Shown here piece after piece: positions 11,456 through 31,170 of a stretch of 64,000 nucleotides of DNA (position 1 is its first letter; each line of letters starts with the position of its first letter). This DNA is from Colwellia sp. C2M11 (lineage in GTDB: Bacteria; Pseudomonadota; Gammaproteobacteria; Enterobacterales; Alteromonadaceae): contig NZ_JAHKQD010000009.1 of NCBI RefSeq assembly GCF_018860915.1, positions 185,455 to 249,454 of the forward strand, in the 5' to 3' direction. The translations under genes were made by a program, and so were the position numbers. The notes beneath the pieces were generated by a model. That model was not told the DNA's origin and made no database searches. It saw only the letters and a program-made list of their open reading frames with translations.

Positions 11456-11490
11456 AGTGCTACATAGTAAAATTGAAAATATGTAGCACT
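11456..11490. repeat. 11-bp perfect inverted repeat between kinase and pgi
   Basis: AGTGCTACATA and TATGTAGCACT are exact complements separated by 13 bases. It lies between the ends of two convergent genes. No T-run follows on either strand, so it may be a transcript-end stabiliser, a weak bidirectional terminator, or one copy of a repeat family (see the related element at 13244). Confidence 0.75.
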
Positions 11491-11519
11491 GTCTATACTA
11501 GTTTAAATCATACACTGGC

Positions 11520-13166
11520 CTAAATCTTTCGCTCGGTCATATAATATTCTATTAACCCTTGAGTTGAGCTATCATGATTTGTATTTACTTCACTCTTTTG
11601 TAGCTCAAGTTGTATTTTATTTGCTAAACCTTTTCCTAACTCAACACCCCATTGATCAAATGAACATATTTTAAGGATAATGCCCTGTACAAAAATCTTA
11701 TGTTCATAGAGTGCAATTAAGCTACCGAGTGTTTTAGGTGATAATTGTTTCATTAAAATAGAATTAGTAGGGCGGTTACCTTGGTGCACTTTATGGGGTG
11801 CTACTTTATTAATATATTCTTGTGTTCTACCTTTCGCTTTCAGGTCTTCTCGTACTTGAGCTTCATCAACCCCTTTCATTAATGCTTGGGTTTGTGCAAA
11901 AAAGTTAGCCATTAATGTTTCATGGTGACCATCAACAGGTGTTACACTTTCGATAGAGCCTATAAAGTCAGCAGGCACAACATTATTACTTTGATGCAAG
12001 TATTGATAAAAAGCATGCTGTCCATTAATTCCTAGTTCACCCCAAATGGTTGGTACGGTAGGGTAGTCAATTTTATCACCATCCCAAGAAACTGATTTAC
12101 CATTACTTTCCATTTCAGCTTGTTGCATATAAGCTGAAAACATATGTAGATTTTGATCGTAAGGTAAAATAGCTTGTGATTGAGCGCCTAAGAAAGTGCA
12201 GTTCCAAATACTTAATAAAGCGAGTAATACTGGTGCATTTTCTTTTAATGGCGCATGATAGAAGTGCTCATCTAGTTCATGAGCGCCAGCAAGTAACTCG
12301 GTGAACTTTTCAAAACCTAAATCAATAGCAATAGGTAATCCGATAGCAGACCATAAGGAAAATCTACCACCAACCCAATCCCACATATCAAAAATATTTT
12401 CTTCGAGAATACCAAATTCAATGGCATTTACCTTGTTAGAAGACACCGCTATAAAGTGTTTCTCTACAGCGCTAGAGTCAAACGATGATGCTACCAACCA
12501 CTTCATCGCGGTTTGAGCATTAGTAATGGTTTCAGTTGTGGTAAAGGTTTTACTAGAAACAATAAAAAGTACTTGCTCAGGGTTTAACGGTTTTAAAATA
12601 TTTGCGATTTGTGTACCGTCAACGTTAGAAACATAATGTGTATTAACACTGTTATCACTATAGCCCTTAAGAGCTTCTGTGACCATTTGTGGACCTAAAT
12701 TTGAGCCACCAACACCAATGTTTACAACATCAGTGATGCGCTTTCCTGAATAACCTAACCATTCACCCTTGCGCACTTTATCACTAAATTTTTTTATTTT
12801 TTCGAGCGATTTTGTTACATTCGACGTAATGTTTTTTTCAAAGGTATCGGTATTTTTAGTTACCGAGCCACGTAATGCCGTATGCAATACCGCGCGCTCT
12901 TCTGTTTTGTTAATGGCAGTACCATTAAACATTTTCTCACGCCATTGTTGTACTTCACAATCATCAGCTAACAGTGTTAATAAAGACATAGTCTCTGTTG
13001 TTATGATGTTTTTAGAGTAGTCGAGTATAAAAGGGGTTAATTTTATAGAAAATTCATTGAAACGACTGGGATTTTTAGCAAACAAGTCATTCATATGTTG
13101 ATCTTTCATGTCTTTTGCATGAGCAACCAATTTTTTCCAGCTTTCTAAATTTGTTCTGCTTTTCAT
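11520..13166 (-). CDS. pgi: Glucose-6-phosphate isomerase
   Basis: Interconverts glucose-6-phosphate and fructose-6-phosphate in glycolysis and gluconeogenesis. The 548-residue length matches bacterial Pgi. Seen: VNIGVGGSNLGPQMV (phosphate-binding), SKTFTTTET, GGRFSLWSAIGLPIA, the catalytic segment GELGINGQHAFYQYLHQ, and the C-terminal SFDQWGVELGKGLA. It appears intact. Its position inside a GalNAc/galactoside island is odd, because pgi is normally unlinked. It is bracketed by two related inverted repeats (11456 and 13244). It could be the only housekeeping copy or a second one; the window cannot tell. Confidence 0.95.
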   Translation of the reverse strand: MKSRTNLESWKKLVAHAKDMKDQHMNDLFAKNPSRFNEFSIKLTPFILDYSKNIITTETMSLLTLLADDCEVQQWREKMFNGTAINKTEERAVLHTALRGSVTKNTDTFEKNITSNVTKSLEKIKKFSDKVRKGEWLGYSGKRITDVVNIGVGGSNLGPQMVTEALKGYSDNSVNTHYVSNVDGTQIANILKPLNPEQVLFIVSSKTFTTTETITNAQTAMKWLVASSFDSSAVEKHFIAVSSNKVNAIEFGILEENIFDMWDWVGGRFSLWSAIGLPIAIDLGFEKFTELLAGAHELDEHFYHAPLKENAPVLLALLSIWNCTFLGAQSQAILPYDQNLHMFSAYMQQAEMESNGKSVSWDGDKIDYPTVPTIWGELGINGQHAFYQYLHQSNNVVPADFIGSIESVTPVDGHHETLMANFFAQTQALMKGVDEAQVREDLKAKGRTQEYINKVAPHKVHQGNRPTNSILMKQLSPKTLGSLIALYEHKIFVQGIILKICSFDQWGVELGKGLANKIQLELQKSEVNTNHDSSTQGLIEYYMTERKI

Positions 13167-13243
13167 TTTTTTACCTTTAAAAATTAGGTGATTATATTGT
13201 TGAGTTGATTCTTACATGATCTTTTATTACGCAAAGAAAGGTG

Positions 13244-13278
13244 GCTACATTGATATACAAGGTCAATTGAAATGTAGC
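13244..13278. repeat. Inverted repeat upstream of pgi, related to the one downstream
   Basis: GCTACATT pairs with AATGTAGC across 19 bases. The right part, AATTGAAATGTAGCA, resembles the right part of the repeat at 11456 (AATTGAAAATATGTAGCA). The two copies flank pgi at distances of 30 and 78 bases. Confidence 0.55.
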
Positions 13279-13356
13279 AAAATAGTCACGTTATATAGAG
13301 CTTTTCATCGGTACTTCATGTGTATTTTATTTTGTGATGTGTACTTTATTAACTCT

Positions 13357-14700
13357 CTATAAGTTAGCGTCGAATTGAATAATTTGACCTGGAACTAAAC
13401 GATCACTTTCAATGGTCAAAATAGGGTTATCACCGCCGATAGCAACATCAAAAACTTTGCTTTCGTTAGGTAATAATCCTTTAAGAGATGCACTTGAACG
13501 AACACCGTTTACAGTGGCATAAGCATCATAATATATAGGTGCTATACCTATATTTTTGATAACGACTTTGCTGGCTACACTAGACGAGGCGAATGCCTCA
13601 ACTTTGAATTTATACCCTGTGGCCATTGCTGCATCTTTGATACGGCTAGGTGTTTGATACGAAGACTGGTTATTACCTATAATATAACTAATATGGTACA
13701 GGCTAGCGAAGTACTCGAAGCTTTTTCCATAAGAGCCTTGATTTGGATTTAACACGTTCATTTGGTCATAGTCAGAATAGTAGCTAAATTCTCCACCTGC
13801 AGGATTTGTTTTATATCTATTTTCGCCAAAGAATAACCAATTCGCACGGTTATATTCATCATCACTAGTAGAATGCATTTTATGCATAAATGAATCGTCA
13901 AATAGGCCAAAATTAAGTGCCTGTAAATCAGGGGCTGCAGCTATAGGCGTGTAATTATGGTCAGCAGCATCAATAGAAAATGACCAAAGCAGTTGCTTGA
14001 ACTCTTGATGTAAATGCTTCAAAAAGTCAGTTTGAAATGCTTTTGAGGGAAAATTTTGACCTAGATTTACAGGACCATCATATAAATGATATTCAGCATA
14101 AGAGCCAAATCCTACTTGTAAGAAAGCAATTCTAGGATCGTTGTCGTATTGCTTAGCAAAGGCACTAAAAAAATCTAATGTAAACTCCTCTAGCCCTTTA
14201 AAGCTCCAATCAGGTAAGTATGTGTTGCGTCCTTCTACTAGTGCTATTGTTGAATTATAATCAGGTGTTGTTTCTATATATTTAGGTACTGAGCTTTGTG
14301 TTTTTCCAGGGTAAGTATAACGAAAGCGTAATATGGCTTGATGACCCCTTTGCTCTATATTTGTTAACAAATTATCAATGCTTGTCCAATCATACATACC
14401 TTTTTCATTAACAACATCGGCGTAAATAACATAAGCATATTCAAGCTGCACGTTATCTCCTAAGTCGTCTAATGTTGTTAAATTATCAGCCCAATACACG
14501 ATCCCTGTCATCGGTTGTACTCGATCGATGGATGATTGTAATGGTATAGAGCGAAATGAAAGCTCTGTATTATCAATGTGAGTGTTTGCATCACCTGAAG
14601 AGGAGTCACCACAAGCATTAAGGAGTAGCAATAAATAAAAAATCGTAAAAAAATGAATTATATTAGTATATTTTTTTTTACTGTAATTTTTAGCTTTCAT
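13357..14700 (-). CDS. DUF4832-like secreted lipoprotein with glycosidase-like fold
   Basis: Function unknown. The 447 residues begin with a long signal peptide and lipobox LLNAC near residue 30. The N-terminal two thirds look like a TIM barrel: VQPMTGIVYWAD, YAYVIYADVVNEKG, QAILRFRYTYPG, and FLQVGFGSYAEYHLYDG, the strand where glycosidases often place catalytic acids. The C-terminal 90 residues look like a beta-sandwich (VIKNIGIAPIYYDAYATVNG, LKGLLPNESKVFDV). This matches the general form of DUF4832 proteins found in sugar-use loci, which is recall, not a search result. The setting suggests it binds or cuts the same glycan as the GH27 and GH36-like enzymes. Confidence 0.6.
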   Translation of the reverse strand: MKAKNYSKKKYTNIIHFFTIFYLLLLLNACGDSSSGDANTHIDNTELSFRSIPLQSSIDRVQPMTGIVYWADNLTTLDDLGDNVQLEYAYVIYADVVNEKGMYDWTSIDNLLTNIEQRGHQAILRFRYTYPGKTQSSVPKYIETTPDYNSTIALVEGRNTYLPDWSFKGLEEFTLDFFSAFAKQYDNDPRIAFLQVGFGSYAEYHLYDGPVNLGQNFPSKAFQTDFLKHLHQEFKQLLWSFSIDAADHNYTPIAAAPDLQALNFGLFDDSFMHKMHSTSDDEYNRANWLFFGENRYKTNPAGGEFSYYSDYDQMNVLNPNQGSYGKSFEYFASLYHISYIIGNNQSSYQTPSRIKDAAMATGYKFKVEAFASSSVASKVVIKNIGIAPIYYDAYATVNGVRSSASLKGLLPNESKVFDVAIGGDNPILTIESDRLVPGQIIQFDANL

Positions 14701-14839
14701 AAAACTCTCAAAGTAAATGAAATCAACAATATTTGGTGTTGTTACGCTTGGTTATTGTTAACTATAATTTGGCGGTATATATTTTTATGGAAGAGGCTCA
14801 ATTGTATTTAAACACTTGTACTATAATATTCATTGAAAG

Positions 14840-14863
14840 AACCATGCGATTTTTCGCATGGTT
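14840..14863 (-). terminator. Hairpin after the GH27 gene
   Basis: AACCATGCGA and TCGCATGGTT form a 10-bp stem with a four-base loop 17 bases past the GH27 stop on the minus strand. The tail TTCTTTC is only moderately U-rich, so termination is likely but not certain. Confidence 0.6.
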
Positions 14864-14880
14864 TAATCGTTAAATAATAC

Positions 14881-16152
14881 TTATTTAGTTGGATAAATTC
14901 TCAACACTATGGCTTCGTGAGAAATAACTTCGTCAGTGTAACTTTCTGGAAAATTGCCCATATCTTTGTGTTTCCAAAGATCTCTAACATGGACTTCTTT
15001 CCAATCTAGACCAAGTTCTTGTTTCCAATTAATAGAAATATTTTCTGTTTCACTGCCTCTGTTCAGCATAGCTATAGCCCAACTTCCATCTGCCATTGGT
15101 TTGGCTAATATATGAATTTTCCCTTCTTTTTTAACCGTTTTTGCTTGTTTACCCAATGGATCTTGATTTAAGGCTATTACTTCCCGGTTAGTCAGTGTTT
15201 TTAACGTATAAGTATCAAGATCACGTACATCGGTCCCAGTTAAAAGAGGGGTAGATAAGATTGACCATAAACTGAAGTGGGCACGATATTCAACGTTAGA
15301 GGCACCTGCGCCAACAAGCTCTTTACTTTCACCGTTAAGACCTACAATTAACATATCAAAATCATTCCATTGACCTGGCTTATTGTATCCTTCTAACCCT
15401 TGGCCTCTATCTAACATATCTAGCACATCAAAATAATAACCCTCTCTATTCTCTGGGTAGTCGAAGTCATCCGAAATGTCTTGGCCAATTCTCCAATGGT
15501 TTGCACCTATATCACCAGCCCATTGCCAAATATTTTGCCAACCACAATGACAAGCATGTAATACGATATCTTTAGGGTTTTCAATCAAGGGTTTAGACAT
15601 TTTGTAAAAAGCTTCTTTTAGTTCTTCTTTACTTGCGTCTTTATGAGAGCAGCAGCTATCATATTTTAGGTGGTCTACACCCCATGATGCGAACATGTCG
15701 GCATCTTGTTTTTCATACCCTTCACTACCTGAGTAGCCTGCACATGTGGTTTGTCCAGGACCAGAATAAATTCCTAACTTCATTCCGTTTTCATGAGCGT
15801 AATCGGCTAAATATTTTATCCCTCTAGGGAATTTCTCTTTATCAAAATCTAAGGGTTTATTCTTACGGTTCCCCTTATCTTGTTGCCAACCATCATCTAA
15901 ATTAACGTAAATATAGCCGGCGTCTTTCATACCATTGTTTACCATTGCATCGATAGTTTCGATAATCAATTGTTCATTTATCTCTACGCCAAATTGATTC
16001 CAGCTGCTCCACCCCATTGGAGGTGTTTTGGCGAGACCATTATTGAGTTTTTCAAAAATATGGTCACTACTATCCGCTTGAGCATTCACGGTTAGAGTAA
16101 ATAATATAAAGACAGATATTATAAAAATACGAGATGTTGCCATAAGTTTCAT
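14881..16152 (-). CDS. GH27 alpha-galactosidase / alpha-N-acetylgalactosaminidase
   Basis: Predicted retaining exo-glycosidase removing terminal alpha-galactose or alpha-GalNAc. The start is taken at 16152: from there the protein opens with MKLMATSRIFIISVFILFT, a clear signal peptide ending near VNAQA, and a GGAAAG ribosome site precedes it. An in-frame ATG at 16308 would add 52 unlikely residues. Seen in the 423 residues: LAKTPPMGWSSWNQF, YVNLDDGWQ, GIYSGPGQTTCAGYSGS, the nucleophile in LKYDSC (about D165), and the acid/base in RIGQDISDD (about D225). A C-terminal beta domain follows. It lacks a lipobox, so it is probably periplasmic or secreted. Divergent from agaR. Confidence 0.93.
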   Translation of the reverse strand: MKLMATSRIFIISVFILFTLTVNAQADSSDHIFEKLNNGLAKTPPMGWSSWNQFGVEINEQLIIETIDAMVNNGMKDAGYIYVNLDDGWQQDKGNRKNKPLDFDKEKFPRGIKYLADYAHENGMKLGIYSGPGQTTCAGYSGSEGYEKQDADMFASWGVDHLKYDSCCSHKDASKEELKEAFYKMSKPLIENPKDIVLHACHCGWQNIWQWAGDIGANHWRIGQDISDDFDYPENREGYYFDVLDMLDRGQGLEGYNKPGQWNDFDMLIVGLNGESKELVGAGASNVEYRAHFSLWSILSTPLLTGTDVRDLDTYTLKTLTNREVIALNQDPLGKQAKTVKKEGKIHILAKPMADGSWAIAMLNRGSETENISINWKQELGLDWKEVHVRDLWKHKDMGNFPESYTDEVISHEAIVLRIYPTK

Positions 16153-16527
16153 ATACTTTCCAAAAATGGTTGATATTAATTTATTTAAGATAAAACATAC
16201 TAATCGAAAACAAATGAAAGGTAAAGGGCGGGAGTGGTAATATGAAAAATTTACCATTAATGTAAAACTTACAACTAATAAAAGTGACAAGGTTAATTGT
16301 ATAACCACCTGTTATTATTATAAAAAATTATCTTTGATTTATTGTTTTTTAGCATGTCTTTAATTGTTACTGAAGGGTATTGAAGGCATATGTAAGAAGA
16401 AATACTTGATTTATATGGTTAAAATAGAAATTTTGATTAAAATAAGGTCTTCATTATCTTTCGTTGATGCGTTACTCGATTACTGTTAAAATACTAACTA
16501 TTAAATAAAAAATATAGTAACTTAAAT
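16153..16527. promoter_or_regulatory. Divergent promoter region of GH27 and agaR genes
   Basis: AT-rich 375 bases between two divergent starts. It contains one GAAGG tandem (16372 and 16382), listed separately. I see no clear ribosome site before the agaR ATG and no small gene. Confidence 0.5.
16370..16387. promoter_or_regulatory. Candidate AgaR operator between GH27 and agaR
   Basis: CTGAAGGGTATTGAAGGC contains GAAGG twice with 10-bp spacing. It matches the site at 10004 (CTGAAGGATATTGAAAGC) at 16 of 18 positions. Its place between divergent GH27 and agaR fits autoregulation plus control of the glycosidase. Confidence 0.65.
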
Positions 16528-17301
16528 ATGCTTAATACTATTGAAAGACGCCAGAAAATTATTGATAAAGTAAATGAGTTAAGCCGTGTCGACGTAGCAC
16601 AATTGGCTAGTGAGTTTGATGTTTCGACTGTTACGATAAGAACTGACTTAAATGACCTCAGTAAAAGACGATTATTAATTAGATCTCGAGGCGGCGCTGT
16701 TGCAATTAGTAAGATAACTAAAGAATTATCAGTAAAAGAAAAGCATTGCAAAAACTCTCACATTAAAGAAAAGTTGGCCGAAGCCGCTGTACAGTTAATA
16801 AATAATGATGAGTTAATAATACTTGATTCCGGCACCACTACCGAAGAAATAGCCAAGTTATTGCAGAACCATGAAAATCTAGTTGTAATGACTAATGGTT
16901 TAAATATAGCCACTGAGCTTTCTCATTTACAAAACTCAGAAGTGCTAATGACTGGTGGAACGTTAAGACAAAAGTCATTATCGTTTTATGGACGTCAAGC
17001 AGAAGCGAGCCTTAATAATCTTCGCTTTGATAAAGTGATTTTAGGTGTGGATGGTGTGGAAATATCTTCAGGTTTCACGACACATTTTGAACATGAAGCA
17101 ACATTAAATCGTTTAATGTGTAATATTTCAAAAGAAGTTATTGTTGTTACCGATTCTTCTAAGTTCGGGAGAAGTGGATTATATATCATCGATTCGCTTG
17201 ATTCAATTGATATACTCATCACGGACAATAAGATTCCTTCTCAATATATAGACTATTTTCAATCAAAAAACGTTAAGCTAATTATTATTGATGTTGATTA
17301 G
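16528..17301 (+). CDS. agaR: DeoR-family repressor, AgaR-type
   Basis: Predicted transcriptional repressor that responds to an amino-sugar or tagatose phosphate. The 257 residues hold the DeoR winged helix (IERRQKIIDKVNELSRVDVA, recognition helix VSTVTIRTDLNDLSKRRLL, then RSRGGAV) and the sugar-phosphate isomerase-like effector domain with LDSGTTTEEIA, VMTNGLNIA, and VTDSSKFGRSG. The family opening supports the ATG at 16528, although no good ribosome site is visible. Operator-like GAARG repeats lie in its own upstream region and in three other island control regions. The AgaR label rests on neighbours AgaS and AgaZ. Confidence 0.82.
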   Translation: MLNTIERRQKIIDKVNELSRVDVAQLASEFDVSTVTIRTDLNDLSKRRLLIRSRGGAVAISKITKELSVKEKHCKNSHIKEKLAEAAVQLINNDELIILDSGTTTEEIAKLLQNHENLVVMTNGLNIATELSHLQNSEVLMTGGTLRQKSLSFYGRQAEASLNNLRFDKVILGVDGVEISSGFTTHFEHEATLNRLMCNISKEVIVVTDSSKFGRSGLYIIDSLDSIDILITDNKIPSQYIDYFQSKNVKLIIIDVD

Positions 17302-17330
17302 CATTTTTATTTTAATAGTGTAAGAATATA

Positions 17331-17370
17331 AAGGAGCTAATATTTTCATATCAGCTCCTTTTTATTTTTT
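17331..17370 (+). terminator. Rho-independent terminator after agaR
   Basis: AAGGAGCT (17331-17338) pairs with AGCTCCTT (17353-17360), loop of 14, followed by TTTATTTTTT. It lies between two convergent genes, 30 bases past the agaR stop. The U-tract favours plus-strand transcripts. Confidence 0.85.
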
Positions 17371-17375
17371 AGGTC

Positions 17376-20267
17376 TTAAAACTTATATCTAACGCCTACA
17401 CTATAACTCCGGCCCCATTCAGAGTAGCCACCAGAGCCTGTTAAGCTTGTTGAGCCGTTGTATCCTTGCCAGCCATCATCTAAAAGATTATCAATTTGAA
17501 CAAAAGTCTCTAAGCCTTCAGATATATAGAAGGTCGCAGAGGCTGATGCCCAAGTAGAAGCTGTTGCAATCGCTTTATACGTACTTTCAGTTATACCGTC
17601 AGCATTAGGAGCATTTAATGATGACCAATGAGAGGTTACAAAGCTTTCGGTGTGATCAGCGGATAAGCTTAAACTCATGTAGTCGTTATTATACATTAAG
17701 CTAAGTGAATACGCTGTGTCAGGAATTCCGGCTAATACGCCAATAACATAACCATCTACAATAGACTCTGTATCAATATAGGTATAATTGGCGACAACGC
17801 CAAAGCCAGACTCAAAAAAGTGTTGCATGGCAAATTCATAACCTAATACTTTAGCTTGGTCTAAATTTAGCGGTTGATTTACCCCAAATACGACATCTTC
17901 AAAACCTTGAGGATCCCATGGTCGAGGGTTATTTACACTGTAAACTGGCGCATCTTCTCTGTTGTTGACGTAAACATCTTGCCCTCCTTGAACGAAACCA
18001 TCGATATCTTTGTAAAATAATGCCGCTGATAGCGATGAGCCTTTTTGATAATACCATTCAATAGAGACATCGACTTGTTCAGCCGTAACAGGTGTTAAGT
18101 CAGGGTTACCAAGCTTGTTAATGGTGTATTCGCCCCAAGTGGAAGGGGATGTATCTATTTGTGTTGACAGTTTATCAATTTCTGCTCTTGCCATTACTTC
18201 TGCGTAAGAAAAACGCACAATTAATTCATCAGAAAATTCGAATTGCAAATTAACTGATGGTAATAATTCACTATAGTCATTACTAATTGAAATAGGTGTT
18301 CTCTCACCATGGACAACGATATGTGTCCATATATCGGCGGGTGATTGATCAATATAAGCAATTGGCCAATCCCAACCTGTTGAGGTAGTTTCAGTTTGAA
18401 CGTAGCGAAGCCCAATATTACCTGAAACGTTTACTGAATCGAATTCATGACTAAAATCAGCTTCTAGGTAAAGAGCAATCGTTTCTTCTGCAACTGCACC
18501 AGACAAATCTGAATTCCATGTAGGAAAAAGTGCGTCTGAATAATCATCCACATAAGGTACGCCTGTGACAGGATCTATGATATTTGGATTGCCATCAGCG
18601 GCTCTAACGCCATTGAAAGCTTGTTCAACATCAAAAATAGCAAACTCTCGAGGGAAATCACCACCTACATTGTCTAAGAAGTTATCGAAAGGAAAAGCTT
18701 GAACAACATCAACACCCACATCTGACCATGAAAATGGAGCACCGCTATATAAAGACATAGAAGAAACGTTATCAAGTTGTGTACGTTCTTTTGTACGTTT
18801 ATTATAAACAATACCGGTATGAATATTATTAATAATAGGCATATCTAAAAAGAGATCATATTTAAGTGAGGCACCAATCACTTCATCTTCTATGTCAACT
18901 CCTTCTAGTTTGGTGAAATGAGGACCAAATTGGCTATTCTCTACTAAATCACTAACTTCACTAATGCCTGCTGTATTATCAATGAAATTGAGATCAATAC
19001 TGGGAAGCTCTCCTGGTGCTAACGTCACTCTGGATGTTGTTGAACCAGCAACGGATGCTAAAGGAACTGAAACAACAAATCTATCCTTACCACCTGCTTC
19101 ACGTTTTGCATTTGATAAATATAAGTCACCGCTAAGTACTGAGTTTTTTGTTAAGTTATATTTAGCGTTGAGGCCTAAGTTTAAAGTGTCAACCACACGA
19201 TGTTCTTCTAAAGTCACTAATTGTGGCACTAAGTTATCAACGGTTAACCCTGTGATTAAAATACCGTCAGGATTTAATTCAGTTGTTGGTCCTCCGTATT
19301 CTACATCTCTCCAATTTGAAGAGTCGGGAAAATAATAAGACTCTGTATAGCCTTTCACCGGTGTATCTAAGCGAGTGAACAGGGCGTCAACTACAATATC
19401 TAAGTCATCATTAGGGCGATATTGAAAAGCTGCTGAAATAGCTGTCCGCTCTTTATTTTCTTCGTATGCTGTGTAAGCGATAGTGCCGGGAAAAACTAAT
19501 TCTCTATCTGCTGCATCATTCGTGTCGCCATCACCATTACGATCCCAGTTCCAGTTATCTGCTGATGCGGCATTAAAGTTATTATCTGATAATGAATCTG
19601 TTCGTGTAGGTGTTCTACTATAAAGGGCAGAGAATAAAATTCCCATGGTGTCGTCAGCAAAGGTGTGCGAGCCTACACCGGTCATTTTATAACCATATTT
19701 TTCAGCTTGATCGCCATACTGGCCTGTGAAAGAAGCCGATCCATGTGTGCCTAGATTGTCAAAAGGTCGTGCGGTAACAAGGTTGACTGCACCACCAATA
19801 CTGCCTTCTAATTGTGAAGCTTTGCTCGACTTTAAAACCCAAGCCTCTGAAATAACTTCTGCTGGCAATACATCAAAAGCAAATTCACGACCACTTGAGT
19901 CAGTTGCCATAATGCGTTCATTAATCGTAACAATACTAAATTCGGGCCCTAAACCTCGAATATTAACGCCTTTACCCTCACCACCACTGGTTCTATCGAT
20001 GGTAACACCGGTTATGTGCGATAATGAGTCAGCAACGTTAGCATCAGGGAATGCACCTAATTCACTTGCGGTAATTCCATCCATTATAGAATCAGCATCA
20101 CGCTTATAATCTAATGCTTTTATTAAACCTGATTGAGAAGAAGTAACTGTAATTACTTCCATATCGCTTTCAGACTGTTTTTGATTTTCAGCTGAATAAG
20201 CGGTATTCGTACAAAAAAACAGGCCAATTGCTACTGTTAACGCATTCTTTACAAATATATCCTTCAT
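17376..20267 (-). CDS. TonB-dependent outer-membrane receptor for the sugar island
   Basis: Predicted outer-membrane active transporter, energised by TonB. The 963 residues begin with a signal peptide (to about TAYSAE at 26) and a TonB-box-like EVITVTSSQ. The plug follows (DANVADSLSHITGVTIDRT, GVNIRGLGPEFSIVTINER, GSIGGAVNLVT), then a long beta-barrel ending in the aromatic motif YSVGVRYKF. Size and plug motif match carbohydrate-type receptors of Alteromonadales. A GAARG operator-like pair lies about 85 bases before its start, which ties it to AgaR. GalNAc-containing oligosaccharides are the likely cargo by context only. Confidence 0.88.
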   Translation of the reverse strand: MKDIFVKNALTVAIGLFFCTNTAYSAENQKQSESDMEVITVTSSQSGLIKALDYKRDADSIMDGITASELGAFPDANVADSLSHITGVTIDRTSGGEGKGVNIRGLGPEFSIVTINERIMATDSSGREFAFDVLPAEVISEAWVLKSSKASQLEGSIGGAVNLVTARPFDNLGTHGSASFTGQYGDQAEKYGYKMTGVGSHTFADDTMGILFSALYSRTPTRTDSLSDNNFNAASADNWNWDRNGDGDTNDAADRELVFPGTIAYTAYEENKERTAISAAFQYRPNDDLDIVVDALFTRLDTPVKGYTESYYFPDSSNWRDVEYGGPTTELNPDGILITGLTVDNLVPQLVTLEEHRVVDTLNLGLNAKYNLTKNSVLSGDLYLSNAKREAGGKDRFVVSVPLASVAGSTTSRVTLAPGELPSIDLNFIDNTAGISEVSDLVENSQFGPHFTKLEGVDIEDEVIGASLKYDLFLDMPIINNIHTGIVYNKRTKERTQLDNVSSMSLYSGAPFSWSDVGVDVVQAFPFDNFLDNVGGDFPREFAIFDVEQAFNGVRAADGNPNIIDPVTGVPYVDDYSDALFPTWNSDLSGAVAEETIALYLEADFSHEFDSVNVSGNIGLRYVQTETTSTGWDWPIAYIDQSPADIWTHIVVHGERTPISISNDYSELLPSVNLQFEFSDELIVRFSYAEVMARAEIDKLSTQIDTSPSTWGEYTINKLGNPDLTPVTAEQVDVSIEWYYQKGSSLSAALFYKDIDGFVQGGQDVYVNNREDAPVYSVNNPRPWDPQGFEDVVFGVNQPLNLDQAKVLGYEFAMQHFFESGFGVVANYTYIDTESIVDGYVIGVLAGIPDTAYSLSLMYNNDYMSLSLSADHTESFVTSHWSSLNAPNADGITESTYKAIATASTWASASATFYISEGLETFVQIDNLLDDGWQGYNGSTSLTGSGGYSEWGRSYSVGVRYKF

Positions 20268-20863
20268 GACTTCCTGCCTTAATATTTATTTTAATTCAAT
20301 GTTTTTTTTGTTTTATTTGTAACATTAAAACAGTAACAAAAGAGAATGTATCTTTCAAGTTCCTTCATAGTGTCTGTTTTTAGTTTTCTTTATTTACGTT
20401 TTTTTTGGGGGGATCTCTTTATTACTTGAATAGCTGGGGTCATGTCAAAGTTATAATGAATACTTATCACTATAATATTTTTAATAGTGAAATAACATTT
20501 GCTGCTAGAAGCTTTATAAGAAGGAGAAGTAATACAGTATTGTCTCTAATTTATTCAAGCCTCGTTACCTTTCATTTTTTAACTAACAATAATATATGAA
20601 GCTTTCGTTTGTTGTCATAAGTCGTAGGGTGATGTAGTATGAAATAATCAGTAAATAATGAAGCGTATAACAAGGTATTTAAATGGCATTGGTTATCGAG
20701 TTAAGCCCACTAATGCACAACGATAATGCTTCAAGCCGTTATACATTAGGTTGGTTAAATAGAAAGTAAGTAAAATATAAGTTAAAAGAATGGGTTATCA
20801 TTTTTGTTAAAAATAATTAACTTATTTTGAAAATTTTACATAATTCATAATAAGAGGTAAATA
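20268..20863. promoter_or_regulatory. Divergent region between receptor and permease genes
   Basis: About 600 AT-rich bases between divergent genes. It holds one operator-like repeat near 20350. A ribosome site AGAGGT precedes the permease ATG. No further gene, RNA fold or operator pair with exact 10-bp spacing was found on the permease side. Confidence 0.5.
20350..20367. promoter_or_regulatory. Candidate AgaR operator before the TonB receptor
   Basis: CTTTC at 20352 and CCTTC at 20362 are 10 bp apart. Read on the minus strand this is TGAAGGAACTTGAAAG, the same form as the sites at 10004 and 16370. It is about 85 bases upstream of the receptor start. Confidence 0.62.
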
Positions 20864-21790
20864 ATGAGTACAACTGATGTCGATAAAGGAAAGCACGTAG
20901 GTGTATTAAAAACAAAAAATAGTAAGTATAGCTGGTTGACGTTTTCAATAATCACTATAACGCTATGGGGAACATGGGGAGCATTGATTTCTATTCCTGA
21001 GCAGAATAATTTTCCTGCAGAGCTTGGTTTTATAATGTGGGCTTTATCCATGATAGTACCAGCGTTTTTTGCATTAAAAAGTGTGGATTGGAAATTAAAT
21101 ACAGGAAAGTTTTCAATAATATTTGGCAGTATTATTGGCTTACTCGGCGGTGTAGGACAGCTCATTTTATATTCAGGTGCAATTGCCAATGGTCCTGCGT
21201 ATTTAATCTTTCCAATAATTGCTTTAGCACCTGTTGTCACTATTATTATGTCGCTGATTTTTCTAAAAGAAAGAGCAGGAGTAAAAGGCTGGCTTGGTAT
21301 TGCGCTAGCAATAATTGCTGTGCCATTCTTAAATTACTCTGAAGCAGGAGCGGGTGGAGAACATTCTGGTTGGTTGATCTTTGCATTATTAGTTTTTCTT
21401 GCTTGGGGGGTTCAAGGTTACTTTATAAAGTATGCTAATGAAAAAATAGAAGCCGAAAGCATTTTCTTTTATATGGCACTTACTAGTTTACTGCTTTGCC
21501 CGGTTGCGTGGTTAATGGTTGATACGCCAATGGCCGCTAATTGGCATTGGGATGGGGCTGGATTAGCTTTTACTATTGGTTTATTAAACTCTTTTGGAGC
21601 ATTATTTTTAGTATTCGCTTTTCGATATGGAAAAGCGATTGTTGTTAGCCCTCTTGTGAATTGCTTGCCGCCTATTATTACCAGTATCCTTTCATTAATA
21701 ATGCTTTCGGTATTACCAACACTTGTTGTGGGGATTGGTATGTTGATTGCGTTGATTTCAGCGTATTTCTTGGCTTTTGATGAGTCATAA
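20864..21790 (+). CDS. DMT/EamA-like inner-membrane permease, probable sugar transporter
   Basis: Predicted multi-pass inner-membrane transporter. The 308 residues show about ten hydrophobic segments in two similar halves, the pattern of the drug/metabolite transporter superfamily (for example YLIFPIIALAPVVTIIMSLIFLKER, and the second-half VVSPLVNCLPPIITSILSLIML). A short hydrophilic N-terminus precedes the first segment. A GRP-type glucose/ribose permease is another possible label. Because the island encodes a soluble kinase and no PTS components, this is the best candidate for inner-membrane entry of free GalNAc or galactose. It precedes agaZ on the same strand, with a gap of about 300 bases. 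Confidence 0.75.
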   Translation: MSTTDVDKGKHVGVLKTKNSKYSWLTFSIITITLWGTWGALISIPEQNNFPAELGFIMWALSMIVPAFFALKSVDWKLNTGKFSIIFGSIIGLLGGVGQLILYSGAIANGPAYLIFPIIALAPVVTIIMSLIFLKERAGVKGWLGIALAIIAVPFLNYSEAGAGGEHSGWLIFALLVFLAWGVQGYFIKYANEKIEAESIFFYMALTSLLLCPVAWLMVDTPMAANWHWDGAGLAFTIGLLNSFGALFLVFAFRYGKAIVVSPLVNCLPPIITSILSLIMLSVLPTLVVGIGMLIALISAYFLAFDES

Positions 21791-22093
21791 AAATACCTAG
21801 GTTGTTGGTGAAATTATAGTTAAGCTAGTAACCATTAGCTTATATTAACCTAATGAATATATAGGGTATTTTTTGTTAAATAATGATTTATTTATATTTT
21901 AATATTGTTTATTGCAATAAAACTCAACATGCCTAGCTCAATAGGAAATTAGTTAAGTTTCTTGCGTGGTTAATAAAGTAAATGTAAATAAATAGATAAA
22001 AAAACAAAAGCATTTGAAAAGATGTGTAAACAATGTTAGATTTCACTTTTTAATAAATGATTATTGGATTACTAGTTTACCTTAAGGCTTTTT
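21791..22093. other. Gap between permease and agaZ
   Basis: AT-rich space with a weak seven-base stem (TAAGCTA with TAGCTTA, near 21821-21842) and no U-tract. No clear promoter or AgaR-like repeat with exact spacing was found, so it is open whether agaZ-agaS is transcribed from here or with the permease gene. Confidence 0.4.
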
Positions 22094-23395
22094 ATGAATG
22101 AAATAACACAGATAATGACAGACAACAAGAATGGTATTCCACGTGGTATTTATTCTGTATGTAGCGCTCATCCGACAGTAATAGAAGCAGCATTGCTTCA
22201 AGGCGTTGAAGATAATTCTCCTGTGCTTATAGAAGCGACAGCAAATCAGGTTAATCAATTTGGTGGCTACACCAATATGAAGCCTGCTGACTTTACCGTT
22301 TTTGTAAAAAAAATCGCTGAAAAGGTTAAATTTCCGATAGCTAACATCATTTTTGGTGGCGATCATTTAGGGCCAACTTGTTGGACTAGTGATACAGCAA
22401 CTGATGCGATGGAAAAATCAAAGCAATTGATCGAAAGTTATGTTGCTGCTGGTTTTAAAAAAATTCATTTAGACACCAGCATGCAATGTGTGGATGACTT
22501 AGCACCTCTTTCAGATGAGACAGTTGCTAAGCGAGCTGCGATACTTTGTAAAGTAGCTGAAGAAACAGCGATACGTGAATTTGGTAAATCAGATATTTTA
22601 TATATTGTGGGTACTGAAGTACCTCCACCAGGCGGTGCTAAAGAAGAAATCGATACCTTAGAAGTTACCCCTGTAAGTAATGTTAAAGAAACAATTAGTG
22701 TTCATGAAGCTGAGTTTTTAGCAAAAGGCTTAAATGACGCTTGGACACGAGTGATTGGGTTAGTTGTTCAACCCGGTGTAGAGTTTGATAACTTTACTGT
22801 CTTTAAATATGACGCAGAAAAAGCTAAACCATTAAAAAGTTTTGGGGCTAGCATGCCAAGACTGGTATTTGAAGCACACTCTACAGATTATCAACCTCCT
22901 GAAGCATATAAAGCATTAGTGCAAGATCATTTTGCTATTTTAAAAGTGGGACCTCAACTTACTTTTGCTCTTCGAGAATCGCTTTTTGCATTAAGTTTTA
23001 TTGAGCAAGAGTTAGTAGATAATGTTTCACTATCAAATCTACGTGAAGTTTGTGAAACCGTTATGTTAGAGAATCCAAATGGCTGGGATAAATTTTATCC
23101 ACATGACCAAAACAATTTAGCAACTTATAGACGTTATAGTTTTAGTGATCGTATTCGCTATTATTGGAATAATGAAGTCATTGAGAAAGCAATAGATAAG
23201 TTATTTGAAAACCTTAAAGGCATTGAGATTCCATTGCCTTTATTGAGTCAATTTATGCCAAAGCAATATGATGCTGTAATAGCTGGCAAGCTTAATAATT
23301 CACCTAAAGCTTTAGTGTTAAATAATATTATGCAAGTGACTAAAATATATGCGGATGCATGTCACTTTCAAACAACATCAAGAGTAAAAAAATAA
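22094..23395 (+). CDS. agaZ: AgaZ/KbaZ/GatZ family protein of tagatose phosphate metabolism
   Basis: Member of the family described as the non-catalytic partner of class II tagatose-1,6-bisphosphate aldolase (KbaZ, GatZ). The 433 residues match the E. coli proteins in length and sequence: GIYSVCSAHPTVIEAALLQG, LIEATANQVNQFGGYT, FGGDHLGPTCW, KKIHLDTSM, IVGTEVPPPGG, and FEAHSTDYQ. It is intact. No gene for the catalytic subunit (AgaY/KbaY) or a tagatose-6-phosphate kinase is in this window, so it either works with distant partners or has an activity of its own. Its TAA overlaps the agaS ATG by one base, so the two are translationally coupled. Confidence 0.92.
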   Translation: MNEITQIMTDNKNGIPRGIYSVCSAHPTVIEAALLQGVEDNSPVLIEATANQVNQFGGYTNMKPADFTVFVKKIAEKVKFPIANIIFGGDHLGPTCWTSDTATDAMEKSKQLIESYVAAGFKKIHLDTSMQCVDDLAPLSDETVAKRAAILCKVAEETAIREFGKSDILYIVGTEVPPPGGAKEEIDTLEVTPVSNVKETISVHEAEFLAKGLNDAWTRVIGLVVQPGVEFDNFTVFKYDAEKAKPLKSFGASMPRLVFEAHSTDYQPPEAYKALVQDHFAILKVGPQLTFALRESLFALSFIEQELVDNVSLSNLREVCETVMLENPNGWDKFYPHDQNNLATYRRYSFSDRIRYYWNNEVIEKAIDKLFENLKGIEIPLPLLSQFMPKQYDAVIAGKLNNSPKALVLNNIMQVTKIYADACHFQTTSRVKK

Positions 23396-24510
23396 TGAAT
23401 GAGTACTTATCAATATCTACCGAGAGCTTAAAGAAAAACAATGCTTTTTGGACGGCAAAAGAAATAACACAACAACCTGAGTGTTGGTCAATTACCCGTG
23501 ATTTAGTACGTAATAATGATGAATTAGCACCTTGGTTAGAAAGTGTTTTGGCAAAAGAAAATTTACGTATCATTCTAACGGGTGCCGGTACATCTGCCTA
23601 TGTTGGTGAGGCATTAGCACCGCATTTAACGAAAGCATGTAACCGTTTAGTTGAGGCTGTAAGTACTACGGATATTGTATCAAGTCCTGATCAGTACCTC
23701 ATTAGCAGTATTCCCACGTTACTAGTATCATATGGGCGTTCAGGTGATAGCCCTGAAAGTGTTGCTGCGATTAAACTAGCAGATCAAGTACTTGATGATT
23801 GTTACCATTTGGTCATCACGTGTAATGAAGATGGCAGTCTTGCTAGGTATGCCAATGAGTCTGAAAAAGCATTCAGTGTTTTAATGCCAAGCCAATCACT
23901 TGATCAAAGTTTTGCAATGACCAGTAGTTTTACTTCAATGTATGTTGCGACACTCGCTATTTTTGCTGCAGATGATAAGCAGTTAGCTTTTGCTATTGAC
24001 GCAGCACAACATGTGATTGAAACATTGTGCCCAACAATACAAGACATTAGTCAGCTGAATAATACCAAACAAATTTTCTTAGGCTCTGCAGCACTTTCTG
24101 GAATGGCAAAAGAAGCATCGTTAAAATATTTAGAATTAACTGCCGGTAAAATAGGTTGTTTTTGTGAAAGTTCTTTGGGTTTTCGACACGGACCGAAATC
24201 GAACGTTGATGAGAAGAGTATCATCATAATGCTTGACTCAAATGATGAATATATTAGTCATTATGATAATGATATGGTCAATGAGTTAACTGCCAATGCT
24301 ATTGCGATGAAAGTGGTTACATTAAAGAGCCTTTTACCAGAAGTGCCTGACGATCTTAGTGATGTATGGCTTGGGCTACCTTATATTGTTATTTGCCAAA
24401 TACTGTCGTTCTATAAATCATTATCTTTAAATTTCACCCCAGACAATCCTTGCCCTACTGGTGAAGTGAATCGTGTTGTTCAAGGTGTAAATCTTTATCC
24501 TTTCGGATAA
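23395..24510 (+). CDS. agaS: AgaS, galactosamine-6-phosphate deaminase/isomerase (SIS domains)
   Basis: Predicted cytoplasmic enzyme converting galactosamine-6-phosphate to tagatose-6-phosphate and ammonia, the role established for Shewanella and E. coli AgaS. The 371 residues contain two SIS domains: ILTGAGTSAYVGEAL near 60-74, SYGRSGDSPESVAA near 115, then ASLKYLELTAGKIGCF and SLGFRHGPKS in the second half. The start at 23395 uses the TAATG overlap with agaZ; an in-frame ATG at 23359 lies inside agaZ. It is the last gene of the unit, followed by a terminator. Confidence 0.92.
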   Translation: MNEYLSISTESLKKNNAFWTAKEITQQPECWSITRDLVRNNDELAPWLESVLAKENLRIILTGAGTSAYVGEALAPHLTKACNRLVEAVSTTDIVSSPDQYLISSIPTLLVSYGRSGDSPESVAAIKLADQVLDDCYHLVITCNEDGSLARYANESEKAFSVLMPSQSLDQSFAMTSSFTSMYVATLAIFAADDKQLAFAIDAAQHVIETLCPTIQDISQLNNTKQIFLGSAALSGMAKEASLKYLELTAGKIGCFCESSLGFRHGPKSNVDEKSIIIMLDSNDEYISHYDNDMVNELTANAIAMKVVTLKSLLPEVPDDLSDVWLGLPYIVICQILSFYKSLSLNFTPDNPCPTGEVNRVVQGVNLYPFG

Positions 24511-26694: not shown

Positions 26695-29082
26695 ATGTCA
26701 GCTATTGCCGAGCAAATTAGTGAGCAAATCGCTCAAGAACTTAAAGTTAAAACCTCTCAAATTAATGCCGCTATTAACTTATTAGATGATGGGTCAACCG
26801 TACCTTTTATTGCTCGTTATAGAAAAGAGGCAACAGAAGGTTTGGATGATAATCACTTGCGTGAGCTAGCAACTCGATTGGTTTATCTTCGTGATTTAGA
26901 GGCTCGACGCCAAGTTATTTTAACCAGCATAAAGCAACAGGATAAACTAACGGCAGAATTAGCTAAACAGATTAACAGTGCCGATAATAAAACTCGGTTA
27001 GAAGATTTATATTTGCCTTATAAGCCTAAGCGTCGCACCAAAGGGCAAATTGCTATTGAAGCAGGCATTGAGCCATTAGCGACTAGTCTTTTTAATAATT
27101 GGCAGTTAGATCCTGAACAAGAAGCGCATGCTTACTTAGGTAAGGTCGCTATCAAGAATGCTGGTTTTGATGATGTTGAAGCGATTTTGGCGGGCGCTAG
27201 TGCTATTTTAGCCGAGCGTTTTAGTGAAGACGCTAACCTATTACAAAAACTACGTAGCCATATCCTTAAGCAAGCGCATTTAACAAGTAAAGTTGTGAAA
27301 GGTAAAGAAAAAGAAGGTACTAAGTTTAGAGATTATTTCGACCATAGTGAAAAATTAAAAACAGTCCCTTCACATCGTATGCTTGCAATGTTGCGTGGCC
27401 GTAATGAGGGTTTTTTGCAGTTAAAAATTGATGTTGATCCTAGTCAGGAAAAAAATGCAGTTTCCAGTGCTGAACAAGTTATTAATGATCATTTAACATT
27501 GCGTTTAACACAGCAAAAAGCGGCTAGCTTTTTAACCAGTACTGTGCGTTTAGCGTGGAAAAGTAAGTTGAGCGTTAGTTTAAGTAATGAAATTTTAACA
27601 CAGTTACGTGAGCAAGCTGAGCAACAGGCAATTAAAGTGTTTGCCGAAAATTTATCAGACTTATTAATGGCAGCACCTGCAGGGGCGAAAGTAACACTAG
27701 GATTAGATCCCGGTTTACGTACAGGTTGTAAAATTGCCATTGTAGATGCCACGGGTAAATTACTACATACCACCACTATTTTTCCTCACGCTCCACAAAA
27801 TCATTGGGATAAATCAGTACGTACTTTGGTTAATATATGTCGTCAACATAAGGTTGAATTAATTGCTATTGGTAATGGCACTGGATCCCGTGAGAGTGAT
27901 AAATTAGTTAGTGATGTTATTGCGCAATTTGACTCTACTACGGGATTAGCGAAACCGAAAAAAATGATAGTAAGCGAAGCCGGGGCGTCGGTTTATTCTG
28001 CCTCTGAATTTGCCGCGAAAGAATTTCCAGACCTTGATGTTTCAATACGTGGCGCAGTGTCTATCGCAAGACGTTTACAAGATCCCTTAGCTGAACTAGT
28101 TAAGATTGACCCAAAAGCTATTGGTGTAGGTCAATATCAGCATGATGTGAGTCAAAGCCAGTTAAGTAAAAGTTTGGATGATGTTGTAGAAGATTGTGTA
28201 AATGCTGTTGGTGTTGATTTAAATTCAGCATCTGTGGCATTGTTAACTCGCGTTGCTGGCTTAAATAAAACGATGGCGAATAATATTGTACAGTTTCGTG
28301 ATGAACAGGGCGCTTTTAGTAATAGAAAACAATTAAAGAAAGTCGCTCGTTTAGGGCCAAAAGCTTTTGAACAAGCGGCTGGATTTTTACGTATTAGTGG
28401 TGGTGACAATCCCCTTGACCAGTGTGCTGTTCATCCAGAAACATACCCTATTGTAGAAAGCATTATTAAGCAGCTTAATATTGATAGTGCCAATTTACTT
28501 AATAGCGCAGAGCAATTACAGAAAGTTAATATCAGTGAATTAGCAACTGAGCAATTTGGTGAAGTGACGATTAAAGAAATTATTAAAGAGTTAGTCAAGC
28601 CAAACAGAGATCCAAGACCTGAATTTAAAACAGCGACTTTTGTTGATGGTGTTAATAACATAACTGACTTAGAAGTTGGTATGGTGCTTGAAGGGGTTGT
28701 TTCCAACGTTGCTAATTTTGGTGCATTTGTTGACGTAGGTGTGCATCAAGATGGTTTAGTACATATTTCGGCAATTACTGATAAATTTATTAGTGATCCA
28801 CGAGAAATCATCAAAGCTGGTGAAATAGTTAAAGTTAAAGTCGTGGAGGTTGATGCTGCTCGCAAGCGTATTAGCTTAACTATGCGTTTAGATGACAGTG
28901 TCAGTAAGAGCGATGGTAGTTCTCAGGCAAAGCATGAAAAGACAAGTAGTCAATATAAGCCTAAAAGTAACAAGTCTCAAGAAGCTGCGCCAAGAAAGCA
29001 ACATAAGCCTAAAAGTCAAAAAGTAGAAAATGCTGTAATGGGTAATGCTTTTGCCGATGCTTTTGCCAAATTGAAAAAGTAA
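26695..29082 (+). CDS. tex: Tex family RNA-binding protein
   Basis: Conserved nucleic-acid-binding protein linked to transcription regulation and RNA turnover. The 795 residues run through the Tex N-terminal helical region ([16 protein letters not shown]), the YqgF-like RNase fold ([18 protein letters not shown] near 340), helix-hairpin-helix motifs ([37 protein letters not shown]), and an S1 domain ([20 protein letters not shown]) from about 660. The tail after 730 is low-complexity, rich in K, S and Q. Length is normal. Divergent from bdhA; a gene-free stretch with an sRNA candidate follows. Confidence 0.96.
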
Positions 29083-29271
29083 ATTTGTCCTGAATTTAGT
29101 TATCTAATTAAGCCATTTAGAATAATCTTTAAGTGGCTTAATACCTTTTTGACGCTGTTAGCGTTGCAACTATTCCCCCAAAAATCGAGTAAAGATAACA
29201 TTACTAAGAATGGATTATTGCCATTCAATATTTTCGCGCCTAAAAAAATTTAAAATAAATGAAAATAATAG

Positions 29272-29300
29272 TTGACTATGTAAATGCAAATCATTATCAT
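29272..29300 (+). promoter_or_regulatory. Strong promoter overlapped by a Fur box
   Basis: TTGACT (29272-29277) and TATCAT (29295-29300) are separated by exactly 17 bases, giving five of six consensus matches in each box. The 19 bases at 29280-29298, GTAAATGCAAATCATTATC, match the classical Fur consensus at 15 positions. The Fur site fills the spacer and part of the -10, the arrangement of tightly iron-repressed promoters. No protein gene of normal size follows. Confidence 0.78.
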
Positions 29301-29306
29301 TTCTAT

Positions 29307-29503
29307 ATTGGTTGAGGCAAATGAATGCTCTCTCAGGCGCTTTAACTAATGGAGTAAGGCAGTAGCTTGGTGGTTATGCTTCAGGACACATAATCATCAA
29401 GTTTCTTCTTTGCACCTTGATTCAACTTATTCCTTTGGGTCAGTCGATTAAAAATTTTTGATGGTTTTACCAGTACTTACAATTTGTAAGTACTGGTTTT
29501 TTT
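29307..29503 (+). ncRNA. Candidate Fur-regulated small RNA
   Basis: A transcript starting about seven bases after the -10 would run about 200 nt to the terminator at 29470-29503. Inside it, the arm CTTGGTGGTTATG (29366-29378) pairs over 13 bp with CATAATCATCAAG (29389-29401), including two G-U pairs. G-U pairs favour selection at RNA level over a DNA palindrome. After the hairpin comes a C/U-rich single-stranded stretch (29402-29440) with UUCUUCUUU, CACCUU and UUCCUUU, complementary to Shine-Dalgarno sequences. This is the layout of Hfq-dependent, RyhB-like RNAs, though the conserved RyhB core was not recognised. A 14-codon frame (ATG 29321, stop TAG) lies in its 5' part. Predicted only. Confidence 0.65.
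29470..29503 (+). terminator. Rho-independent terminator of the sRNA candidate
   Basis: CCAGTACTTAC and GTAAGTACTGG are perfect complements around a five-base loop, followed by seven T residues. It lies almost 400 bases past tex, too far to be its natural end, and faces away from the convergent chemoreceptor gene. Confidence 0.92.
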
Positions 29504-29535: not shown

Positions 29536-31170
29536 TTAGAACTTAAATCGTCCAACTACCTCTGACATGCTATGGCTACTGGCTCTTAGCTCCGAACTAG
29601 CATCTAAAAGTGACTCTGATGTTGCTAGCGATTCATCTGTCATTCCGGCTAAATCATTAATACGTAAATTGACTTCATCAGCGGCTTGAGTTTGTTGCTC
29701 TGTTGCACGTGCTATTTGAGTATTCATTTCTGAAATAAGTTCCATTAGTTTATCTATTTCAGATAAAGCATCATTAGCTTTACTCGTTTGTTCTACAGTT
29801 TGGTTAGAAATGTCTTGGCTAACTTGTACTGCAGCTACTGCTTCTTGTGCACCTGCCTGCAACTTTTGAATCATTTGCTGAATTTCATTAGTACTTTGTT
29901 CTGTTCTATTCGCAAGTGTTCGTACTTCATCAGCAACGACAGCAAAGCCACGACCTTGTTCTCCGGCTCTAGCTGCTTCAATAGCAGCATTGAGTGCTAA
30001 TAAATTGGTTTGCTCGGCAATACCGCGAATTACATCAAGTACCGAACCAATATTGTCACTTTCAGCCGCAAGGCTAGTTACCACTTGTGAAACACCATCA
30101 ATATTAGTTGATAAAGACTGCATTTGGGTTATGGTGTTTGCAATGATTTCTTTCCCGTGATTTGTGTTATTTTGTGCGTCATTGGCGGCATTTTCAGCAG
30201 CAGATGCATTATTACTTACATCACGTATTTGTGACGTCATTTGCTCCATTGCCGTTGCGACTTGTGTAGTTATATCACTTTGGTTTTGTGTTAATAACTG
30301 TGCGCTTTCGCTGGCATCTGCAACTGACTGAGCACGGCTAAGTACAATATTAGCGTTGTTTGCTACATCGGCAAGGGAATCACGCATTTTAGTCGTAAAC
30401 TCATTAAAATAGTGTGCTAAACGTGAAATCTCATCTTGTGCCTTTTCATCTAACGTGCGGGTTAAGTCGCCATCTCCTTCAGCAATATCTTTCATTAAGT
30501 CAGAGGCTTCGTGAGTAGGTGTGATAATACTTTTGCCGATAATATAACCAAGAAGGGTTATCAATAGTATTAAGATGAAGACATAAATCAGTAATGAATT
30601 TCGTTGAGTTTCAAATATAGTATCTACATCATCAATATAGGTACCTGAGCCAATAATCCATTGCCAAGGCGTGAATCCTTTAACAAATGATATTTTATTT
30701 ACTGGCTGGTCGATACCAGGCTTCGGCCATTTGTAAGGGACAAAGCCTTCACCTTTGTCTCGCACAATATTAACCATATTAATAAATAGAAGAGTTCCAT
30801 CAGGATCTTTTGTGGTACCAACATCTTTGCCATTAAGTGCAGGTGTTATCGGGTGCATAATTATGCGAGGTGTAAAATCATTTATCCAAAAATAATTACC
30901 GTCTTCATATCTCAAGCTATTAAGTACTTCCATTGCTTGCTTTTTAGCTTGTTCTTCATTTAATAAGCCATCGTTTTGTTGTTGATGAAAATGTTCTACT
31001 ACACCATAGGCAGTTTCAACAACTTGCTGATTAGTATTATATTTTTGTTTTAATAATGATTGATATGCTTGAGATAAGCTAATTGAGCTTAGAATGATAA
31101 AACCAGATAAAACCAAGGCTATAAGTAATATTAAGCGCTGTTGGATAGTAAATTTACGTAAAAGTCGCAT
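29536..31170 (-). CDS. Methyl-accepting chemotaxis protein with Cache sensor
   Basis: Inner-membrane chemoreceptor. The 544 residues show a first membrane segment at about 12-34, a periplasmic single-Cache type domain (EDGNYFWINDFTPRIIMHP, FVPYKWPKPG, PWQWIIGSGTYIDDV), a second membrane segment near 195-215, a HAMP linker, and the signalling hairpin tip [20 protein letters not shown]. Domains with the sensor motif YFWI..P..IMHP often sense small organic acids; the ligand here is unknown. The C-terminus lacks an obvious CheR-docking pentapeptide. Neighbour of a porin and a second chemoreceptor on the same strand. Confidence 0.93.
   Translation of the reverse strand: MRLLRKFTIQQRLILLIALVLSGFIILSSISLSQAYQSLLKQKYNTNQQVVETAYGVVEHFHQQQNDGLLNEEQAKKQAMEVLNSLRYEDGNYFWINDFTPRIIMHPITPALNGKDVGTTKDPDGTLLFINMVNIVRDKGEGFVPYKWPKPGIDQPVNKISFVKGFTPWQWIIGSGTYIDDVDTIFETQRNSLLIYVFILILLITLLGYIIGKSIITPTHEASDLMKDIAEGDGDLTRTLDEKAQDEISRLAHYFNEFTTKMRDSLADVANNANIVLSRAQSVADASESAQLLTQNQSDITTQVATAMEQMTSQIRDVSNNASAAENAANDAQNNTNHGKEIIANTITQMQSLSTNIDGVSQVVTSLAAESDNIGSVLDVIRGIAEQTNLLALNAAIEAARAGEQGRGFAVVADEVRTLANRTEQSTNEIQQMIQKLQAGAQEAVAAVQVSQDISNQTVEQTSKANDALSEIDKLMELISEMNTQIARATEQQTQAADEVNLRINDLAGMTDESLATSESLLDASSELRASSHSMSEVVGRFKF

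Follow-up and report, generated by a model that had tools for sequence, protein, structure and literature searches.

We describe a short intergenic stretch of the Colwellia sp. C2M11 genome that lies between tex and a convergent chemoreceptor gene and that contains a promoter with a Fur-like box, the body of a predicted small RNA (sRNA) and a terminator. The stretch belongs to the window, that is, the whole 64,000 nucleotides of DNA that were analysed, and all coordinates are counted from its first letter. The features are as follows.

26695 to 29082, plus strand: tex, the gene upstream, lying outside the RNA (Pfam Tex domains)
29272 to 29300, plus strand: sigma-70-type promoter, TTGACT, 17 bases, TATCAT (from sequence; in relatives, TTGAC also precedes the copies at the tex locus)
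29280 to 29298, plus strand: Fur-like box overlapping the spacer and the -10 region of the promoter (15/19 match)
29307 to 29503, plus strand: predicted sRNA gene, about 198 nt (start placed from the -10 element)
29307 to 29350, plus strand: hairpin 1, an outer helix and a short inner helix (5 of 8 outer pairs with double changes)
29325 to 29332, plus strand: putative seed, the 8-nt loop ATGCTCTC of hairpin 1 (its complement, GAGAGCAT, stands at the ribosome-binding sites of predicted targets)
29365 to 29402, plus strand: hairpin 2, 14 pairs, loop CTTCAGGACA, with the invariant word CAGGAC
29450 to 29468, plus strand: A/U-rich stretch 5' of the terminator, a possible Hfq site (TTTTTGATGGTT largely conserved)
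29469 to 29503, plus strand: intrinsic terminator, stem and seven T (5 of 9 stem pairs with double changes)
29536 to 31170, minus strand: chemoreceptor (MCP) gene, the gene downstream, convergent and lying outside the RNA (Pfam MCPsignal and sCache_2)

Most of this anatomy had been proposed in a preliminary description of the sequence and was found again here. The promoter with its 17-base spacing is present, the Fur-like site in its spacer does match 15 of 19 positions, and no normal-sized gene follows: no open reading frame (ORF) of at least 25 amino acids overlaps 29254-29457, and a 35-residue frame with a TTG start begins at 29458 and runs across the terminator. The terminator stem (29469-29497) has 13 pairs rather than the 11 first reported, with the seven T running to 29503, and the internal hairpin has 14 pairs rather than 13. 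A tiny ORF, ATGCTCTCTCA, was considered and rejected; its ATG is ACG in two related loci (L007 and L028), and its reading frame meets a stop codon almost at once. The predicted RNA folds more stably than shuffled sequences (z -6.76, none of 200 shuffles as good). The stretch has the predicted noncoding RNA with its own intrinsic terminator and, as far as the sequence can tell, the Fur box overlapping the promoter that characterise Fur-repressed iron-sparing sRNAs, and the A/U-rich stretch and poly-U tail are sequence features that bear on a putative use of Hfq.

Two of these signals carry little weight individually. Between 28500 and 30200, four promoter-like matches were found compared to a mean of 5.8 in shuffled sequences; there is no excess, and consequently the promoter by itself proves nothing. 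The single Fur-like site is not decisive either, since 0.3 matches of this quality to the 19-base consensus are expected per strand in 64 kb and two more 15/19 sites occur on the minus strand of the window (6980 and 9212). What raises the sRNA candidate above chance is conservation, both of the Fur-like box and of the structure through covariation.

In an initial DNA search of 99 relatives, many genus genomes matched strongly and the matches elsewhere were all short; 30 loci were fetched, some of which end at contig edges. The promoter, Fur-like box, RNA and terminator recur beside tex and the chemoreceptor gene across records of Colwellia and Litorilituus; tex adjoins the RNA in 27 of the 30 fetched loci and the chemoreceptor gene does so in 23. 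Just upstream of 44 of the 50 motif occurrences in the examined loci lies a Fur match scoring 14/19 or better, while 0.3% of shuffled stretches have one. Three of the other six score 13/19, one scores 12/19, and two, with scores of 9 and 10, are internal modules of fused RNAs and have no promoter. The regular company of tex, and a promoter situated 190 bases downstream of that gene on the same strand, would also fit a structure at the 3' end of the tex mRNA, or a cis element, instead of a free sRNA. We consider this very improbable: the promoter and Fur-like box conserved at those 44 occurrences belong to the RNA itself, tex has a separate terminator-like stem at 29107-29142, copies with a similar promoter are found away from tex, and in the window the RNA is followed by no gene on its own strand, the chemoreceptor gene being convergent.

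The alignment of the copies (A1) comprises 40 copies from 28 loci and leaves out L007, where the 3' end is cut, and L030, a fused form. In the consensus structure, which was derived from the same alignment, 98.5% of cells pair, against at most 44.1% in controls where the structure was slid along the alignment, and 14 of 35 pairs show double changes compared to a mean of 7.3 after shuffling. In hairpin 2 double changes occur in 4 of 14 pairs, with 99.5% of cells paired. The words GCTCTCTCA and CAGGAC are both invariant in all 40 copies and stand beside fast-changing linkers. This pattern corrects one detail of the preliminary description, which had seen the pairing part of the RNA in a C/U-rich strand at about 29402-29436. 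That strand is mostly variable except for a short CTTT word, and the invariant anti-Shine-Dalgarno element is the loop of hairpin 1.

A covariance model (R1) was built from the aligned copies, with 28 genus loci in the training set. It matches the window copy, itself among the training copies, at 29301-29503 with 142.2 bits (E 3e-27). At E of at most 0.01 it matches 34 of 39 genus genomes, most of them by construction because 28 loci trained the model; G003, G010, G014, G020 and G029 lie outside the training set. The comparison among genomes strengthens the candidate. One of the 34 (G027) retains the terminator part only. Among the five genomes with no match, the assemblies of G031 and G008 contain no tex match, in G006 tex runs off the contig and the RNA locus is unassembled, and in G030 and G017 tex is complete with no copy seen in the 700 bases after it. 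In an order-wide search of 295 genomes, two of them of the genus, the best E value among the 293 genomes outside the genus was 0.045, under stricter filters and with 8 candidates scored per genome, a setting that a diverged relative could escape. A pattern scan of the contigs of named genomes returned 59 stretches, including Colwellia and Litorilituus records. Those confirmed by R1 include C. psychrerythraea, C. piezophila, C. demingiae, C. marinimaniae, C. ponticola, C. echini, C. maritima and L. lipolyticus; stretches from unrelated organisms (for example, Neptuniibacter and Pseudovibrio) gave no R1 match below E 1. A weak R1 match in G035 (L114) was set aside: it covers a terminator-like stem after another frame, which by eye we take to be glutaminyl-tRNA synthetase.

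The number of copies varies. The tex locus has two motif copies in 11 of the 30 loci and three in one, and the two in L030 lie within one RNA. The fused forms L030 and L117 have one promoter and two loop-1 words each, with three and two loop-2 words, respectively. Separately, in L115 (2740-3010) and at the corresponding position of L116, hairpin 1 is split from hairpin 2 by about 260 inserted bases. Dispersed copies also occur. In the Colwellia sp. C2M11 genome itself (contig C34) and in the relative G011, a copy with a Fur-like promoter adjoins acnA. These two copies (L111:3001-3136 and L110:3001-3121) are convergent with acnA and lack the usual terminator, and the tail of the former is a tandem repeat of TTAGTAACTACTTA; the acnA-side copy could be antisense to the 3' end of acnA. 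In G013 a copy with a Fur-like promoter (L109:2159-3206) directly follows sodN and a SodX-like gene, which places a nickel superoxide dismutase (Ni-SOD) and a putative repressor of its iron counterpart (Fe-SOD) side by side. The copy in G022 (L108) lies between two ferritin-family genes and a TonB receptor gene, has a weaker Fur-like box (12/19) and carries CAGAAC in place of CAGGAC.

Tandem series of one to three copies, fused modules and dispersed copies, one of which adjoins frames that by eye resemble transposases, could also stem from a repeat or a small mobile element multiplying without any regulatory role. We find this hardly probable at all, given that synteny is kept genus-wide, that copies per genome are few, that the structure covaries and the loops stay invariant amid fast-changing linkers, and that sodB and fumA carry the complement of the loop in this genus but not in the other genera sampled.

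The last point concerns the proposed targets. RyhB pairs at the sodB ribosome-binding site, and the loop ATGCTCTC of hairpin 1, predicted to be 96-100% unpaired, has its complement GAGAGCAT overlapping the Shine-Dalgarno sequence of sodB in the genus. For sodB we used 30 loci from the 37 matching genomes of the genus and another 30 from the 56 outside it; for the class I fumarase gene (fumA), 30 of 39 genus genomes, 27 with a readable start, and 28 of 56 outside the genus. The word GAGAG[CT]A is found in the sodB start region of 27/30 genus loci compared to 0/30 loci of other genera of the family, where the shorter words GAGAGC and GAGAG[CT] occur in 1/30 and 2/30, and at the fumA start of 25/27 genus loci compared to 0/28; GAGAGC alone gives 27/27 and 0/28 for fumA. 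The genomes are related and our counts, of target sites as of conservation, ignore kinship, so that they are not independent trials and the p-values of the start-site comparisons overstate the case. Median duplex energies are -12.6 kcal/mol in the genus and -5.5 kcal/mol outside it for sodB, and -11.9 and -6.9 kcal/mol for fumA, with overlap at the edge (best values outside the genus, -11.6 for sodB and -11.9 kcal/mol for fumA). The predicted pairing is short, 7-10 bp. Different fumA upstream contexts within the genus end in GAGAGCA, which argues against simple inheritance of one leader. None of 145 other ORF starts in the genus loci carries the seed complement, in a crude and small background where only 37 of the 145 have a Shine-Dalgarno-like word.

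Individual genomes depart from the common pattern in both directions. G026 has the RNA, yet GGAGAACA stands at its sodB, as it does in G006, where the RNA locus is unassembled. The sodB site is kept in G017, where no copy was seen, and in G027, with its remnant, and is lost in G030, which has no copy.

Target sites beyond sodB and fumA come from one genome, that of the window, where GAGAGCA followed after 0-7 bases by ATG was found in 30 places compared to 19 for a reversed-pattern control. After leaving out L167 and L186, where the ATG lies inside long frames, and frames of less than 60 residues, 12 plausible gene starts are left, of which 7 are iron-linked by protein family: SodB, the fumarase (Fumerase), RimO, NqrM (PF04400), a JmjC_2/ROXA-like (RoxA-like JmjC) protein, a three-domain cytochrome c and a Fer2/Fer2_2 (2Fe-2S) subunit. 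NqrM and RoxA-type enzymes depend on iron. The start of rimO (TIGR01125) has a ten-base match, TGAGAGAGCA, to the seed. The other five are DHDPS, OmpA, PstA, a 91-residue protein and a FliK-like protein, all without an iron link. As a comparison set we took 40 of the 46 ORFs called in the window, a single window and not a random sample, and among these proteins Pfam gave no clear iron-cofactor protein, with a BadF/BadG-type ATPase arguable and four proteins without a family. Outside this set are tex and the chemoreceptor gene (scanned separately), the edge-cut ORF at 1-1476, and those at 47602-51063, 53595-54188 and 59675-60154. The window also contains, at 6567-24507, a cluster of melibiase/alpha-galactosidase-type hydrolases, a PGI-domain protein, a DeoR regulator, a TonB receptor, a GatZ/KbaZ-like protein and SIS-domain proteins, which looks like an amino-sugar or galactoside utilisation locus. 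A longer, 15-base complement of the seed with at most two mismatches occurs in 4 places of the same genome compared to 6 in the control; of these, L148 is the RNA gene itself and L149 lies within a frame on the opposite strand, presumably that of NAD kinase as judged by eye, the others being L150 and L151.

The constancy of CAGGAC, and its multiplication in the fused forms, raise the question whether hairpin 2 is where the main partner binds. The RNA could be Fur-regulated and act chiefly through a CsrA-like protein or an mRNA bound by this hairpin, the match to sodB and fumA being secondary. AGGA in the loop does resemble CsrA sites. However, the complement of loop 2 precedes an ATG in 14 places, none of which is an evident gene start, and the dispersed copy in G022 has the altered word. 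CsrA sponges of the CsrB/RsmY type carry several GGA loops in one RNA, and one is few for such a sponge; the standard copy has one conserved AGGA loop, and multiple CAGGAC words are limited to the fused forms (2 in L117 and 3 in L030). GTCCTG is present on either strand in 21/30 sodB loci and 27/30 fumA loci, which is uninformative for a hexamer in loci of several kb. We give a main role of hairpin 2 a small chance. A two-headed iron RNA, in which loop 1 would block iron-protein messages and loop 2 would be a second seed or a protein-binding site (e.g., for CsrA), is a tentative possibility that we favour less than its absence. If it were true, loop 2 would tie iron starvation to another programme, and tandem and fused arrays could tune the dose of each head separately.

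We consider it highly probable that the locus encodes a Fur-repressed, trans-acting, iron-sparing sRNA that is separate in sequence from RyhB and PrrF and acts alike. With iron plentiful, Fe-Fur bound to the box overlapping the promoter would block transcription. In iron shortage, an RNA of about 198 nt would be made, ending at its own terminator and possibly using Hfq. The loop AUGCUCUC of hairpin 1 would then pair with GAGAGCA(U) on the Shine-Dalgarno sequence of the messages of sodB, class I fumarase and several other iron proteins. Pairing at the ribosome-binding sites of iron-protein mRNAs, which marks iron-sparing sRNAs, is thus predicted in silico; the complementarity is observed, and it would be expected to block ribosome entry, with iron sparing as the outcome, as by RyhB. 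If this is true, a cold-sea genus in which 39 genomes have no RyhB above the cut-off would have an iron-sparing RNA of its own, and a Fur-box promoter joined to a short loop that complements the sodB start site would have been arrived at independently once more. The presence of sodB and fumA sites in the genus and their absence from the sampled neighbouring genera suggests, in a testable way, how a new sRNA regulon was assembled.

The preliminary description had proposed for the RNA a role like that of RyhB or PrrF and, in the absence of a recognisable RyhB core, perhaps a family of its own, and both parts are supported as far as sequence can test them, given the covarying structure across the genus and the complementarity at the sodB and fumA starts. 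Rfam gave no match in the whole window at gathering score and nothing relevant at E 10, and RyhB (RF00057, gathering score 55 bits) gave no match in the stretch up to E 10. Under stricter filters, RF00057 exceeded its cut-off of 55 bits in 0/39 genus genomes (best, 28.3 bits) and in 6/99 genomes in all, each of another family. PrrF (RF00444) reached 15.4 bits (E 3.6, cut-off 90), and this weak match falls on the promoter stretch (29272-29314) instead of the body of the RNA. A literature search on Colwellia or Alteromonadales with RyhB, sRNA, Fur and iron returned no title describing the RNA; an unnamed prediction is possible in the supplements of PMC5471319, a study that takes C. psychrerythraea 34H as a comparison genome.

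RyhB is a Fur-repressed iron-sparing RNA (PMC8891985). The Colwellia RNA is proposed to resemble it in being Fur-repressed, iron-sparing and paired at the sodB start, and differs from it in having the seed in the loop of a 5' hairpin, a length of about 198 nt and no sequence or structure match. The PrrF RNAs were found by a search for a Fur site and a terminator, have no homology to RyhB and are tandem siblings, PrrF1 and PrrF2, in P. aeruginosa (PMC4211561); the Colwellia RNA is like them in its intergenic Fur site and terminator and in its tandem copies. In Streptomyces, an sRNA from the sodF 3'UTR takes part in regulating Fe- and Ni-SOD inversely (PMC3919588), and the likeness to it lies in the SOD context, with one dispersed Colwellia copy after sodN-sodX. 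The Streptomyces RNA arises by processing of a 3'UTR and is under Nur control, whereas the Colwellia RNA has its own Fur-like promoter.
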